Virus record (IMG/VR): IMGVR_UViG_3300045004_000044
Location: 1 to 23,520 of that record
From: a virus
Length of the DNA: 23,520 nt
Direction: 5' to 3' (one strand)
Part shown: piece by piece, positions 13,857 through 23,520 of the stretch
Layout: every line of letters starts with the position of its first letter
How positions within the stretch are numbered: the stretch's first letter is position 1
Notes under the pieces: generated by a model
Database searches by the model: none
Seen by the model: the letters and a program-made list of their open reading frames with translations, nothing else
Told to the model about the DNA's origin: nothing
Program-made: the position numbers and the translations under genes

Positions 13857-14351
13857 TCAGGCAGCCGCCTCCCACTCTTCATCCTCGCCGTCCAGCTCTC
13901 CAGACAGCACCAGATCCAGGCGCCCGTTGGGATCGGTCTTCAACAGCTTGCCGAGGGCGGTCAGTCCGTTCCCGACCAGCCGATTCATCGAACCGACCAT
14001 GGGCTTCGGCGGCAAATATCGGTGCGACGTGGTCTGGTCAAACTCGCCGGCGCACTGGCGGGCCATCAGCTGATAGACCAGAGACGCCAACCGTTCGCTG
14101 CTAAGCCGGGTCTCGACGATCCGCGTCAGCCCGTCGATGTCGTACAGCTGGTCATAGTCATTCCAGGGGCCCAGGCCGACGAACAGATAGCCGGGGAACA
14201 GGGGCCGCTCCACCTCCTCGCGACCGCCCTTCGGAACAGACTTGTACGTCCGTTCGATCGGGCAATAGACCGTGAAGCGGTGCTCTCGCAGAGCGATCGC
14301 CGCCCGGCGGCCGGCTTGGGTCACTTGGGCGATGTGCCAGGTCAAGGTCAT
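13857..14351 (-). CDS. NusG-like (NGN domain) protein, candidate late-gene antiterminator
   Basis: A 164-aa protein with a NusG N-terminal-type domain: Trp5 after a beta start (TWHIAQVTQAGRRAAIALRE), 'FTVYCPIERTYK' (26-37) and the diagnostic 'RPLFPGYLFVGL' strand (49-60). NusG-family proteins bind RNA polymerase and alter pausing or termination (known). The C-terminal KOW domain is not obvious; 'LTALGKLLKTDPNGRLDLVL' (130-149) may be a degenerate version. It is the last gene of the early operon, directly before the late genes, the same place as lambda Q. A role in switching on late transcription is inferred. Its ATG overlaps the upstream gene's TGA. Confidence 0.85.
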   Translation of the reverse strand: MTLTWHIAQVTQAGRRAAIALREHRFTVYCPIERTYKSVPKGGREEVERPLFPGYLFVGLGPWNDYDQLYDIDGLTRIVETRLSSERLASLVYQLMARQCAGEFDQTTSHRYLPPKPMVGSMNRLVGNGLTALGKLLKTDPNGRLDLVLSGELDGEDEEWEAAA

Positions 14352-15112
14352 GCGGCGGCTCCGTCGTGGTCTTGCGGTTTGGGGGCGATGGTTCCGGCGC
14401 GCTCGAGCATGGCGCGCATTTCGGCGCTCATGGCGCTGCCGGGCGGCAGGGGCGCGGCTGGCGTGGGCTTGCGGGCGGCCTGCCGGGCGGCGAGGGCCTT
14501 GGCGGTCGGCGTCTGAGACAAGGCCTCCAGGGTCTGGGCCAACATGGCCTTGACCTCTTCGGGCGAGTGCCGGACCACCGGCGCCTCAATCATGACTTCC
14601 GCCGCGCGGGCTTGAACCACCGCCGCGCGGGCGCGGTTATGAGCTCGGGTCCAGCGGCCGGGCGTCGTCGATTGCCGGGCCAGATCCGCCAGACGGCCGG
14701 GCTTGGGCAGAAACTCCGACTTCGGGTCGGCGACATGGGCCTTCATGCCCGCTTCGATCTGCGCCGGCGTCAGTCCGTCCAGGGCGTCGAAATAGTCGGC
14801 CCAGAACGCCGCCGTCTCGCCTGTGTCCCGTTCCGGCTGGGGATAGGTCGCGAACCGGCTCCCGATGATGTCGCGGACCTCCGATTCAGAGGCCGGACGC
14901 AGGGCCGCCGCGCGCAGGGCCGGCATCGCCATCGCCGCCTCAGACCGCAACATCTCGCTCTTGGCGATGACGTCGACGGCCTTGGCGTCAGTAGGCTCGT
15001 CGAGCAGCCACGAGGCCAGCGGCTTGCTCAGCACCGGCGTAGTGACGGTCGAGGTTTGCGCGTTTTGCGGACAGCTTAGCGCTCGGGCGGTGTTCATCGG
15101 CTGGGCTTGCAT
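14348..15112 (-). CDS. Putative replication protein, P-like (helicase-loader position)
   Basis: A 254-aa soluble protein. The most conserved-looking part is residues 76-147: 'SEVRDIIGSRFATYP', then 'FWADYFDALDGLTPAQIEAGM' and 'EFLPKPGRLADLA', which resembles the pattern of phage helicase-loader-type proteins (a helical domain with W...L..L....i..g......EFPP.PG.l). It follows the initiator gene, the position of lambda P, so loading the host helicase is a reasonable inference. The ATG at 15112 gives a 125-nt overlap with the initiator gene; alternative starts are at 15097 and 14953 (the latter past the overlap, giving 201 aa). The start is therefore uncertain; C-terminal residues 200-254 are Ala/Pro-rich. 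Confidence 0.72.
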   Translation of the reverse strand: MQAQPMNTARALSCPQNAQTSTVTTPVLSKPLASWLLDEPTDAKAVDVIAKSEMLRSEAAMAMPALRAAALRPASESEVRDIIGSRFATYPQPERDTGETAAFWADYFDALDGLTPAQIEAGMKAHVADPKSEFLPKPGRLADLARQSTTPGRWTRAHNRARAAVVQARAAEVMIEAPVVRHSPEEVKAMLAQTLEALSQTPTAKALAARQAARKPTPAAPLPPGSAMSAEMRAMLERAGTIAPKPQDHDGAAA

Positions 15113-15908
15113 GGGGGCGGGCTTCCGGGATCGAGAGGGCGGCGCGGTTGTCGGCGATGGATTGAGCGATGGCGGGTGCGAAGAACTTCCAGGTGGCGAT
15201 TGGGCGGCGGGCCTTCTGGGCCAGGGCCGTGACCACCGGCACGACGTCGTATCGCCACGACGCCCCGTCCCGCTTCCAGGCGACCAACTGGCCCAGCGTC
15301 GTCGCGAGGCCCGGCTGACGGGCGGGGTCCAGCATCACGGTCCCGGCCTCGCCGACCAGTTCCGCCGACCAGGCACGGGCGTCGCCCTCTGGCCAGTCGT
15401 CCTCGACCAGCGCCTCGGCTATCACCTGCACCATCGGCGCCGTCGCGATTTCCGCGCCTCGCGCGTCAACAACAGCAAGTGATGGTTCTAGTGACGGTTC
15501 GAACGTAGTGAGGCCTGCATCTGGTGCAGTCTGTACCGGCACCTCGTGCAGTCTGTCGGCGTCACAGGCGGCATCTGGTGCAGTCTGTTCATTCCGGCAT
15601 TTCGTGCCGCCTGCACGTCGTGCAGTCTGGTTATGACCACCGTTGGGGAAAAGCGTGAACAGATCCGACGTCTGCGTCCCGTTCTTCCGCCGCCGCGTGG
15701 CCTTCTCGATGGCCCTGACGGCGATCAGAGACTGGATCGCGTTCCGCACGGCCCGGTCGCTCAGGCCCGTCTCCGCCACGATCTTCTTGACCGGCGGGAA
15801 ACACTGCGCGTTCTCGTCCGCATAGTTGGCGAGGGCCAGCAGAACCAGCTTTGTCGTTGGGCTGGGGGCGTCGAACGCGAACGCCATGGCGATGCACTGA
15901 ACGCTCAT
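14988..15908 (-). CDS. Replication initiator-like HTH protein (lambda O position)
   Basis: A 306-aa protein. Residues 10-87 form a winged-HTH of the HTH_36 type (PF13730 style): 'SPTTKLVLLALANYADENAQC', 'FPPVKKIVAETGLSDRAVRNAI' and 'GTQTSDLFTLFP', typical of phage replication initiators. Residues 93-131 are a Thr/Ala/Pro/Asp-rich linker containing QTAPDA twice, because the DNA here is an iteron array (15517-15630). The C-terminal half is a separate helical domain, which would contact the helicase loader. The start at 15908 is chosen because it forms an ATGA overlap with the upstream DnaA-like gene. A longer frame upstream to 15944 is not supported. Confidence 0.85.
   Translation of the reverse strand: MSVQCIAMAFAFDAPSPTTKLVLLALANYADENAQCFPPVKKIVAETGLSDRAVRNAIQSLIAVRAIEKATRRRKNGTQTSDLFTLFPNGGHNQTARRAGGTKCRNEQTAPDAACDADRLHEVPVQTAPDAGLTTFEPSLEPSLAVVDARGAEIATAPMVQVIAEALVEDDWPEGDARAWSAELVGEAGTVMLDPARQPGLATTLGQLVAWKRDGASWRYDVVPVVTALAQKARRPIATWKFFAPAIAQSIADNRAALSIPEARPHASPADEHRPSAKLSAKRANLDRHYAGAEQAAGLVAARRAY
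15517..15630. repeat. Iteron-like repeats inside initiator gene, candidate phage origin
   Basis: Five 18-bp direct repeats start at 15517, 15539, 15571, 15597 and 15613. Copies 1 and 3 are identical (GCATCTGGTGCAGTCTGT); copies 2 and 4 differ by two to four bases; copy 5 (15597) is more divergent. The core GTGCAGTCTG is exact in four of them. Spacings are 22, 32, 26 and 16 bp. They fall in the linker region of the initiator gene, as the lambda O-binding iterons do. Just to the left (about 15479-15505) a 12-bp tandem repeat, AGTGAYGGTTC, follows. Confidence 0.65.
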
Positions 15909-16390
15909 CGGACACCGCCTGCGGCGATCAGTAGTTCGCCCCACAGCACCCGCGCATGGTGGCGCTCAATGCCCTCCATCACGGTCGTATGGTGCATCCC
16001 GCCGAAGATCGCTCCTATCCTGGGAAGGCTGAGCCCAAACCGGGCCTGTACCTCGGCCATAGCCTGATGCCGGGCATAGGCCCGGTGACGCTTGTTGCAC
16101 TTCTCGAGAACTTCGCGGGCAGACAGGCCGTATCGCCGCGCCACACTCTCCACCGTCGCAATCACCGCATCATGCGGCGTCGTCGGGTGTCGCGTGGGCT
16201 CCCTGGGCGGAAGCGACTTCACTGGCTGACAGAAACGAGGCCCCGGCACATAGGACGGCCTGGATGGCCGAGAGACGGGCAGGGCGGCGACCGAGATCGA
16301 AGAAACGCCCGCCATTGCTGCGGCGGCCTGCACAGGCACGCCCGACCGCATCAGGTCCATAGCCATGCTGTAATGGGCTGAGGTCGTCAT
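15905..16390 (-). CDS. DnaA domain-IV-like DNA-binding protein
   Basis: A 161-aa protein. Residues 74-150 match the C-terminal DNA-binding domain of DnaA (PF08299): 'VARRYGLSAREVLEK', 'AYARHQAMAEVQARFGLSLPRIGAIFGG' and the signature 'GGMHHTTVMEGIERH' (130-144). In E. coli DnaA the aligned GGRDHTTV uses Asp433, His434, Thr435 and Thr436 for base contacts; here His-Thr-Thr is kept but Arg-Asp is Met-His, so target preference may differ. Domains I-III, including the ATPase, are absent; residues 1-70 are unstructured-looking. It lies between the second DnaA-like gene and the O-like initiator with ATGA overlaps at both ends. A role in phage origin choice or in disturbing host initiation is inferred. 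Confidence 0.88.
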   Translation of the reverse strand: MTTSAHYSMAMDLMRSGVPVQAAAAMAGVSSISVAALPVSRPSRPSYVPGPRFCQPVKSLPPREPTRHPTTPHDAVIATVESVARRYGLSAREVLEKCNKRHRAYARHQAMAEVQARFGLSLPRIGAIFGGMHHTTVMEGIERHHARVLWGELLIAAGGVR

Positions 16391-16848
16391 GCGGCTTCGC
16401 CCCTGTGCCGCCCTATCCAACGGCAAAGGCTCGCCTTGTCCCGCTGAAAGATCGCCTGTTGGTCGATCAGCGTCAGATCGGGAAAGGCTTCACGCACGGC
16501 CTTGATCGACGCGATCAAGGCGCGGGCCGCAGGGCTGGGATAGCGGATCTTCGTGGCGGCGCAGGCCTTCAGGTCGGCAACCTGTACGCCGTGCGCGGCG
16601 CAGACCTCGCGGATGACCGACTGGTGGGGCCCATCGCAGCCGCCCAAGGGCCAGGGCTCGCGGGCACGGGGCATTCCCTCCACGTCTCCGCCGCCTAGAA
16701 TCGCCCGAACGTCGGCCTCGCACCGGCCCAGCACCTTTGCGATCTGGGCCGGCGTGGCGCGGGCGCCCAGCTTCTGCCGGGCGTCATTGACCTCGGACTG
16801 AAGAACACCGCCACGCCGCGCGGTCGCAAATGATCCCGCGCTGCTCAT
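16387..16848 (-). CDS. Second HTH protein with degenerate DnaA domain-IV-like C-terminus
   Basis: A 153-aa protein with two parts. Residues 15-52 look like a small HTH ('ARATPAQIAKVLGRCEADVRAIL'-type, quoted by key LGRCEADV). Residues 76-148 again resemble DnaA domain IV: 'VIREVCAAHGVQVADLK', then 'RALIASIKAVREAFPDLTLIDQQAIFQRDKASLCRW', in which FQRDKASLCR takes the place of the DnaA GGRDHTTV signature. The His-Thr-Thr contacts are replaced, so the resemblance is only structural. It is adjacent to the better-matching DnaA-like gene, sharing ATGA, and may have arisen by duplication and drift. It could also be a different HTH family. Function unknown. Confidence 0.8.
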   Translation of the reverse strand: MSSAGSFATARRGGVLQSEVNDARQKLGARATPAQIAKVLGRCEADVRAILGGGDVEGMPRAREPWPLGGCDGPHQSVIREVCAAHGVQVADLKACAATKIRYPSPAARALIASIKAVREAFPDLTLIDQQAIFQRDKASLCRWIGRHRGEAA

Positions 16849-23161: not shown

Positions 23162-23520
23162 CCGAAGTCACCATTCCGTTTGAAGTCAAAAACCGCTGGA
23201 GCGGTGAGATTCAGTTTACCGCGCAGATCACTTGCGCACCGGATGCGACCCCCGCCGTGAGGCTCGGGCTTGCCGTCCGATGGGCAGTGAAGGTCGGAGC
23301 CAATCTCGCCGACGCCAATCTCACCGACGCCAATCTCGCCGGAGCCAATCTCGCCAGGGCCTATCTCGCCGACGCCAATCTCGCCGGAGCCAATCTCGCC
23401 GGAGCCAATCTCACCAGGGCCAATCTCACCGACGCCAATCTCGCCGGAGCCAATCTCACCGACGCCAATCTCACCGGAGCCAATCTCGCCAGGGCCTATC
23501 TCGCCGACGCCAATCTCACC
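23158..23520 (+). CDS. Pentapeptide repeat protein, C-terminus cut by window edge
   Basis: The frame is open to base 23520 (121 codons). Residues 1-47 ([20 protein letters not shown] then [20 protein letters not shown] and RWAVKVG) are a conserved-type cap; similar caps occur on phage pentapeptide proteins in alphaproteobacteria. From residue 48 there are 14 full A(N/Y)LXX pentapeptides plus part of a 15th. Such repeats fold into a right-handed quadrilateral helix. Some family members mimic DNA and bind gyrase (MfpA, Qnr), others have unknown roles; which applies here is not known. It overlaps the upstream gene (ATGA) as the latest visible gene of the rightward operon. Confidence 0.88.
23299..23520 (+). 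repeat. 15-bp tandem repeats coding pentapeptides
   Basis: A coding tandem array of 15-bp units (consensus GCCAATCTCGCCGGA or GACGCCAATCTCACC in register), 14.8 copies to the window edge. A 42-nt stretch at 23341-23382 recurs exactly at 23476-23517, 135 bp or nine units apart, indicating recent duplication. Confidence 0.85.

Follow-up and report, generated by a model that had tools for sequence, protein, structure and literature searches.

Origins within initiator genes

An origin whose iterons lie inside the gene for the initiator is, of course, a classical arrangement. In phage lambda, dyad iterons lie in gene O and an A+T-rich region follows them. Here, dimers of the O protein bind the iterons, and the neighbouring 40-bp A+T-rich region opens (PMC5043065). 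In the annotated lambda record, the iterons are spaced 20, 24, and 23 bp apart, or about two helical turns. In phage SPP1, oriL lies within the initiator gene 38 and combines direct repeats with an A+T-rich unwinding element (PMC6316719).

Plasmids offer further comparisons. Initiators of the pSK41/pPR9 type have an N-terminal winged helix-turn-helix (HTH), a central linker encoded by the origin, and a C-terminal domain. In the staphylococcal plasmid pPR9, a PF13730 N-terminus and the origin next to it are reported to have taken the place of their counterparts in a pSK41-type initiator, and the mini-replicon replicates (PMC5703833). In RK2, short 13-mers of about one helical turn lie beside the iterons, and the Rep protein TrfA binds one strand in a sequence-specific way (PMC4081077).

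The locus considered here comes from viral DNA in IMG/VR, in a window (the whole stretch analysed) of 23,520 bases; our guess for the host is a member of the Caulobacterales. It shares with lambda the iterons inside an initiator gene and a relatively A+T-rich region after them, and with the pSK41/pPR9 initiators their three-part layout. The latter belong to Firmicute plasmids, and they, like SPP1 oriL, are likened to the window by published description. We consider it likely that the window carries a phage origin of the theta type, embedded in the gene for its own initiator and working by the iteron-binding, melting, and helicase mechanism proposed below. An in-gene iteron origin in an environmental phage would add a member to a known class. 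The new part, which would matter more if true, is a single box conserved beside iterons that change continually.

The initiator and its iterons

The features discussed are collected in Table 1. The initial annotation had described an array of five repeats with a GTGCAGTCTG core, exact in four copies, lying in the linker-coding part of a gene for an HTH initiator and forcing QTAPDA twice into the protein. All of this was confirmed: the array occupies 15517-15629 within the initiator reading frame, and the translation contains QTAPDA twice.

Table 1. Positions of features in the window
Feature	Positions	Strand	Basis
NusG-like gene (PF02357; phrog_6386 'transcription antiterminator')	13857-14351	-	Pfam/PHROG
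Initiator gene, 306 aa: HTH_36 N-terminus, predicted disordered linker, helical C-terminal region	14988..15908	-	ORF, PF13730/PHROG matches, and model
Part coding for conserved C-terminal region (residues 169-306)	14991..15404	-	81/116 aligned residues (169-290) identical to L003
Low-stability stretch covering the GAACC boxes, proposed unwinding element	15467..15511	.	Stability ranking and G+C z
GAACC box 2, GAACCATCA, 12 bp from box 1	15480..15488	-	12-bp tandem repeat 15478-15500
GAACC box 1, GAACCGTCA	15492..15500	-	Sequence; pair also in identical 33.3-kb record
Iteron 4, CAGACTGCACCAGATGC, codon phase 0	15517..15533	-	Exact 17-mer
Iteron 3, CAGACTGCACGAGGTGC, codon phase 2	15539..15555	-	Exact 17-mer
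Iteron 2, CAGACTGCACCAGATGC, codon phase 0	15571..15587	-	Exact 17-mer
Degenerate iteron, 2 mismatches, off helical phase of the others	15597..15613	-	17-mer search
Iteron 1, CAGACTGCACGACGTGC, codon phase 0	15613..15629	-	Exact 17-mer
Part coding for predicted winged-helix DNA-binding domain (residues 1-88)	15645..15908	-	AlphaFold2 model
Protein with DnaA domain IV (Bac_DnaA_C), upstream of initiator	15905..16426	-	Pfam; same position in L002, L003
Pentapeptide-repeat protein (PF00805, E 4.9e-34), runs off window end	23281-23520	+	Pfam

The N-terminal domain of the protein matches HTH_36 (PF13730; E 5.6e-12, 45.7 bits against a cut-off of 25), the sole Pfam family above its cut-off. PHROG families annotated as 'replication initiation' also match (phrog_1032 at E 1.4e-19), as do 'O-like' families at the N-terminus; we do not class the protein as a lambda O. 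In the AlphaFold2 model, the blocks of residues 1-70 have pLDDT values of 82-93 and those of residues 71-90 have 68 and 78. The elements H3-11, H17-28, H40-47, H51-63, E67-73, and E80-86 describe a winged helix up to residue 86. Winged-helix chains stood among the best VIA rows of a fold search, with Z as high as 10.2 across roughly 85 residues. Thus, residues 1-88 are predicted to adopt the winged-helix fold, which is a common one. Residues 92-167, encoded by the DNA that holds the repeats, have pLDDT below 50 and are predicted to be a disordered linker; helices follow at 177-258 in the C-terminal region. The model as a whole is modest (mean pLDDT 64, pTM 0.33). A Foldseek search with it gave no match at E <= 0.001 and otherwise generic winged-helix matches, a sequence search of the PDB found no relative of the initiator at E up to 1, and the C-terminal half, searched on its own at E 0.01, matched nothing in phage records.

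Exact matches to the 10-base core (CAGACTGCAC on the gene strand) number four in the window, every one within the array; in 100 dinucleotide shuffles the mean was 0.05 and the maximum 1. Extended to the 17-mer CAGACTGCACNNNNTGC on the gene strand, it is found exactly four times and once more with two mismatches, and a repeat finder returns the identical five copies. The exact iterons are spaced 42, 32, and 22 bp apart, in steps of about one helical turn; the degenerate copy, 16 and 26 bp from its neighbours, falls outside this helical phase. Each of the five can be read as an imperfect dyad with 5 to 7 of 8 positions paired about a shared best-scoring centre, a score that is the best of several centres, taken without a chance control, over copies that are not independent.

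One exact iteron (15555-15539) is read in another codon phase than the other three exact copies, which means that the array is not merely a peptide repeat. The repeat score of the window was never reached by shuffles of codon order or by within-gene synonymous shuffles (300 trials each).

Relatives of the locus

A 33.3-kb IMG/VR record is identical to the window over 6,918 of 6,918 bases, and in that record the iteron occurs at this place only, in a search that allowed one mismatch. Loss of the repeats from close relatives with the same initiator had been named as evidence against an origin. This was examined in locus L002, whose initiator is 80% identical, and the repeats are retained there: four sites with spacing identical to that of the window, of which three are exact and the other has one mismatch.

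In a third locus, L003, the protein shares with that of the window 27 of 86 residues in the HTH (31%), 6 of 43 in the linker, and 81 of 116 in the C-terminal region (70%). At the same place in the gene L003 carries four copies of a different repeat, spaced 31, 22, and 22 bp. With another HTH and other iterons on a constant C-terminus, HTH and iterons have been swapped together. Such a pattern would follow from each HTH recognising iterons of its own. The iterons are most simply taken as binding sites for the winged helix of their own gene, and very probably belong to a phage replication origin buried in that gene. The module swap in pPR9 (PMC5703833) is of the same kind.

Retention in L002, the joint swap in L003, and the initiator-family matches support the earlier proposal that a replication origin lies at the array, and on this comparative evidence a lambda-like origin within the gene is well supported. 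Among codons for identical amino acids, the window and L002 differ at the third position in 5 of 30 iteron codons, 1 of 12 box-region codons, 26 of 83 HTH codons, and 21 of 118 codons for the C-terminal region. The rate in the iterons is below that of the HTH but equal to that of the C-terminal region, so this pair alone indicates no special silent conservation.

Phage records contained no DNA-level relatives of the region from 13.8 to 17.4 kb, and a scan of genome contigs with the single initiator protein gave no match. An alignment-based scan of genome contigs delivered 11 distant loci; when 385 genomes belonging to a single class were searched with alignment A2 (E <= 1e-20), the sole match was the genome already known.

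A panel of 26 genes was then assembled by protein similarity. It comprised the window (L001), L002, L003, nine of the 11 genome loci (L010 was omitted as a presumed near-duplicate of L009, and L014 as a partial match), 13 phages chosen by hand for variety from 114 phage records, and one plasmid likewise chosen from 18. Significant direct repeats within the gene are present in 25 of the 26, the window included; the largest p is 0.030 when codon order is shuffled and 0.033 when synonymous codons are shuffled within the gene, each taken per gene and uncorrected for 26. The gene of Caulobacter phage Sansa is the one in which they were not significant. The repeats are restricted to the linker in many panel genes, and spread more widely in some (such as L003, L004, L006, and L009).

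A second conserved element

Beside the iterons lies a second conserved element that is absent from the initial annotation: boxes of the form GAACCRTCA, 12 bp apart. They occupy the position of the unwinding region in lambda. The 45-bp stretch that covers them ranks eleventh in the window for low stability among distinct stretches of that length, and is alone between 12.2 and 17.9 kb among the 15 least stable listed. Its G+C content at the boxes is 0.48-0.50 against 0.66 for the gene, with z = -4.2 against a synonymous-codon null. This is far less extreme than in lambda, where the 40 bp after the last iteron have a G+C content of 0.23. An A+T-rich element therefore adjoins the iterons in relative, not absolute, terms, and the ten distinct stretches of the window that are less stable limit the origin reading. 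Lambda differs in two further respects: the HTH profile made for this analysis gives its O protein -0.5 bits, which is no significant match, and the fetched sequence of its O region has GAACC on neither strand.

Both boxes of the window stand in one frame, and the step that separates DNA from peptide as the conserved thing rests, in consequence, on relatives. Many panel genes have a linker that closes with an EPSxEPS-like peptide, whose DNA is GAACC(A/G)TCA or a variant, at a spacing of about one turn. A strict GAACC pair at 10-14 bp is present in 13 of the 26 (codon shuffles gave a mean of 0.20 and a maximum of 2 in 300 draws), and a loose AACC pair at 10-13 bp in 18 (shuffle mean 1.52, maximum 5). 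Five of the 13 genes that have no strict pair (L004, L006, L008, L009, L011, L012, L013, L015, L020, L022, L023, L024, and L025) have the loose one, and eight have neither. The shared box is not universal: lambda and these 8 of 26 panel genes manage without it.

A set of 78 genes selected by protein, not all of them phage initiators, fell into 48 clusters at 60% HTH identity. Here, AGAACC is the most widespread hexamer of the linker, found in 19 of the 48 clusters as against 2 of 48 in the rest of those genes. It occurs 30 times, where synonymous recodings gave 11.9 +/- 3.0 (maximum 24 in 200 draws). In this set, 12 bp is the commonest spacing of GAACC pairs (14 pairs), and a smaller group falls at 23-25 bp (8 pairs).

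Viral contigs were also scanned with DNA only, for GAACCRTCA pairs 9-19 bp apart. The scan returned at least 120 contigs, a sample of unknown order, and a control pattern likewise returned at least 120 in unknown order. As the box pattern had been picked after inspection of the panel, and as clusters are not independent draws, such a scan bears on association, frame, and order but not on the exact consensus. Among the matches listed, an HTH_36-like ORF lies within 1.5 kb in 78 of 120 box contigs and 33 of 120 control contigs; the control pattern is also found there because repeats are common near these ORFs in themselves. By cluster, among the matches listed, the 77 box ORFs reduce to 22, and the 33 control ORFs to 2, in one phase. 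Box contigs in which no HTH was matched numbered 42 among the matches listed. Of 25 checked by eye, seven resemble initiator genes truncated at the end of a fragment, and the rest resemble simple repeats or unrelated frames. Spacings of 10-13 bp account for 92 of 99 HTH-associated box pairs and 22 of 50 of the others, among the matches listed.

Each of 41 scan clusters, formed at 70% HTH identity from the matches listed, has three or more repeat pairs to the HTH side of its boxes; 2 of the 41 have three or more beyond them. Mean G+C drops by about 0.10 at the boxes and is back up 20-30 bp further on. The best repeated 10-mers differ between clusters, with a commonest spacing of 21-23 bp (78 of 147, taken without a chance control); in cluster L102 the best repeated 10-mer is itself box-like.

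The iterons may fall into a few specificity classes. Among the linkers of L069, L077, L123, L130, L149, and L114, CCCCCG is common to several separate HTH clusters, at spacings of 17 and about 22 bp, and other clusters share GGGTGCA-like cores. The control scan brought up a different style of repeat in L191 and its relatives (30 ORFs among the matches listed), a large HTH_36 clade with 15-bp repeats directly after the HTH that encode DTSKS-like peptides.

What the boxes might be

In the phages fetched with a strict pair, the annotated downstream partners vary: a DnaB-like helicase, a P-type protein, a DnaC-like protein with a helicase, a replicative helicase, and a primase/helicase. The same box beside many different iterons, HTH domains, and differently annotated downstream partners argues for a common reader or a common physical need. 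We read the boxes as probable DNA-unwinding elements that have been conserved. More specifically, we lean, with rather modest confidence, towards GAACCRTCA every 10-13 bp being a second module, conserved in the origins that go with HTH_36-type initiators of phages and prophages. This would be a sequence-specific unwinding element, read by a common partner (either a replication factor of the host or a surface that the initiators have in common), retained when iterons and HTH are exchanged, and spelled EPS, RTV/GTV, or NRQ according to frame. The 13-mers of RK2 are likewise short, about-one-turn repeats adjoining iterons, although there they belong to one initiator, whereas here one box sequence stands beside many different iterons. 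Literature searched by title-level listings, with most subscription journals outside it, gave no description of such boxes in phage initiator genes.

Reading frame provides the way to weigh the case in which EPSxEPS is conserved as a peptide, for example for a protein contact, and conservation of the DNA is secondary. In-frame copies do dominate, with phase 0 in 17 of 22 clusters among the matches listed. Both boxes of the window are in frame, and one of the two out-of-frame phases of AGAACC is unenriched in the protein-selected set (6 against 5.8 expected). Yet phases 1 and 2 are each represented in 8 of the 22 clusters, among the matches listed, and in L118 four boxes, exactly 11 bp apart, run through all three frames. 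Among the matches listed, the spacing departs from a multiple of 3 in 50 of 99 HTH-associated pairs and in 7 of 50 pairs where there is no HTH. Further, codons at the motif are shifted towards A+T in 20 of the 23 panel genes that have an EP (mean z -2.15), a count in which the EP picked is in some genes not the motif (for example L006 and L020), L004, L015, and L024 having no EP. A conserved peptide is accordingly unlikely, if worth keeping in mind.

The boxes could also work in mRNA, as a repeated site for an RNA-binding protein. At least 77 ORFs carry them in the sense direction (one strand examined; with both strands, at least 78 contigs have them near an HTH ORF), and a repeat of 11-13 nt could fit a multimeric RNA binder. 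The boxes, however, come after the repeats and at the dip in G+C, with a spacing near one turn of DNA and a lesser group near two, and a role in RNA seems to us improbable.

If the boxes are indeed a DNA module, they would offer a handle for finding origins in many unannotated phages. Recurrent EPS and NRQ peptides in initiators would be explained as by-products of DNA, and whether duplexes open by sequence or by mere A+T content would become a question for synonymous recoding.

A model for the proposed origin

The mechanism that we infer has four parts: protein-DNA binding, melting, helicase loading, and boxes that act as DNA. The N-terminal winged helix would bind the iterons, probably as dimers and on one face of the helix. 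The array so bound would strain the DNA, and the adjoining low-stability stretch, with its 12-bp-spaced GAACC boxes, would open. The C-terminal region would then recruit the replicative helicase or its loader. The linker, being disordered in the prediction, could accept any peptide that the iterons spell.

The same sites might serve as operators that let the HTH protein repress or autoregulate its operon, with no origin at all. Control through initiator binding is known for plasmids, and an HTH protein with dyad-like sites would suit it. The sites, however, begin only after some 280 bp of the gene. In the relatives sampled, moreover, repeats beside a boxed stretch of low G+C are the general layout, and the family is annotated as replication initiators. 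For these reasons we give operators little credence. That the repeats merely mirror a low-complexity linker peptide is very improbable, QTAPDA and the recurring linker peptides noticed on visual inspection of several relatives notwithstanding, since one exact copy is off-frame, the best 10-mers occupy more than one frame in 38 of 41 box-scan clusters (without a chance control), and synonymous shuffles stayed below the observed score.

The origin so proposed has no obvious DnaA boxes. TTATNCACA, with one mismatch allowed, occurs three times in the window, where 3.25 are expected by chance, and none is near the iterons. Where lambda has its P-type loader, the window has a downstream 254-aa protein that matched nothing in Pfam at E 0.1 and, weakly, two PHROG entries of unknown function.

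Neighbouring genes

The gene for a Bac_DnaA_C protein lies directly upstream of the initiator in L002 (2150-3001) and L003 (2213-3001) as well, with differing lengths and N-termini. On the other side, the NusG-like gene sits just past the 254-aa gene that follows the initiator. Far from both, the pentapeptide-repeat gene contains 15-bp and 45-bp DNA repeats that are the top-scoring tandem arrays of the window.
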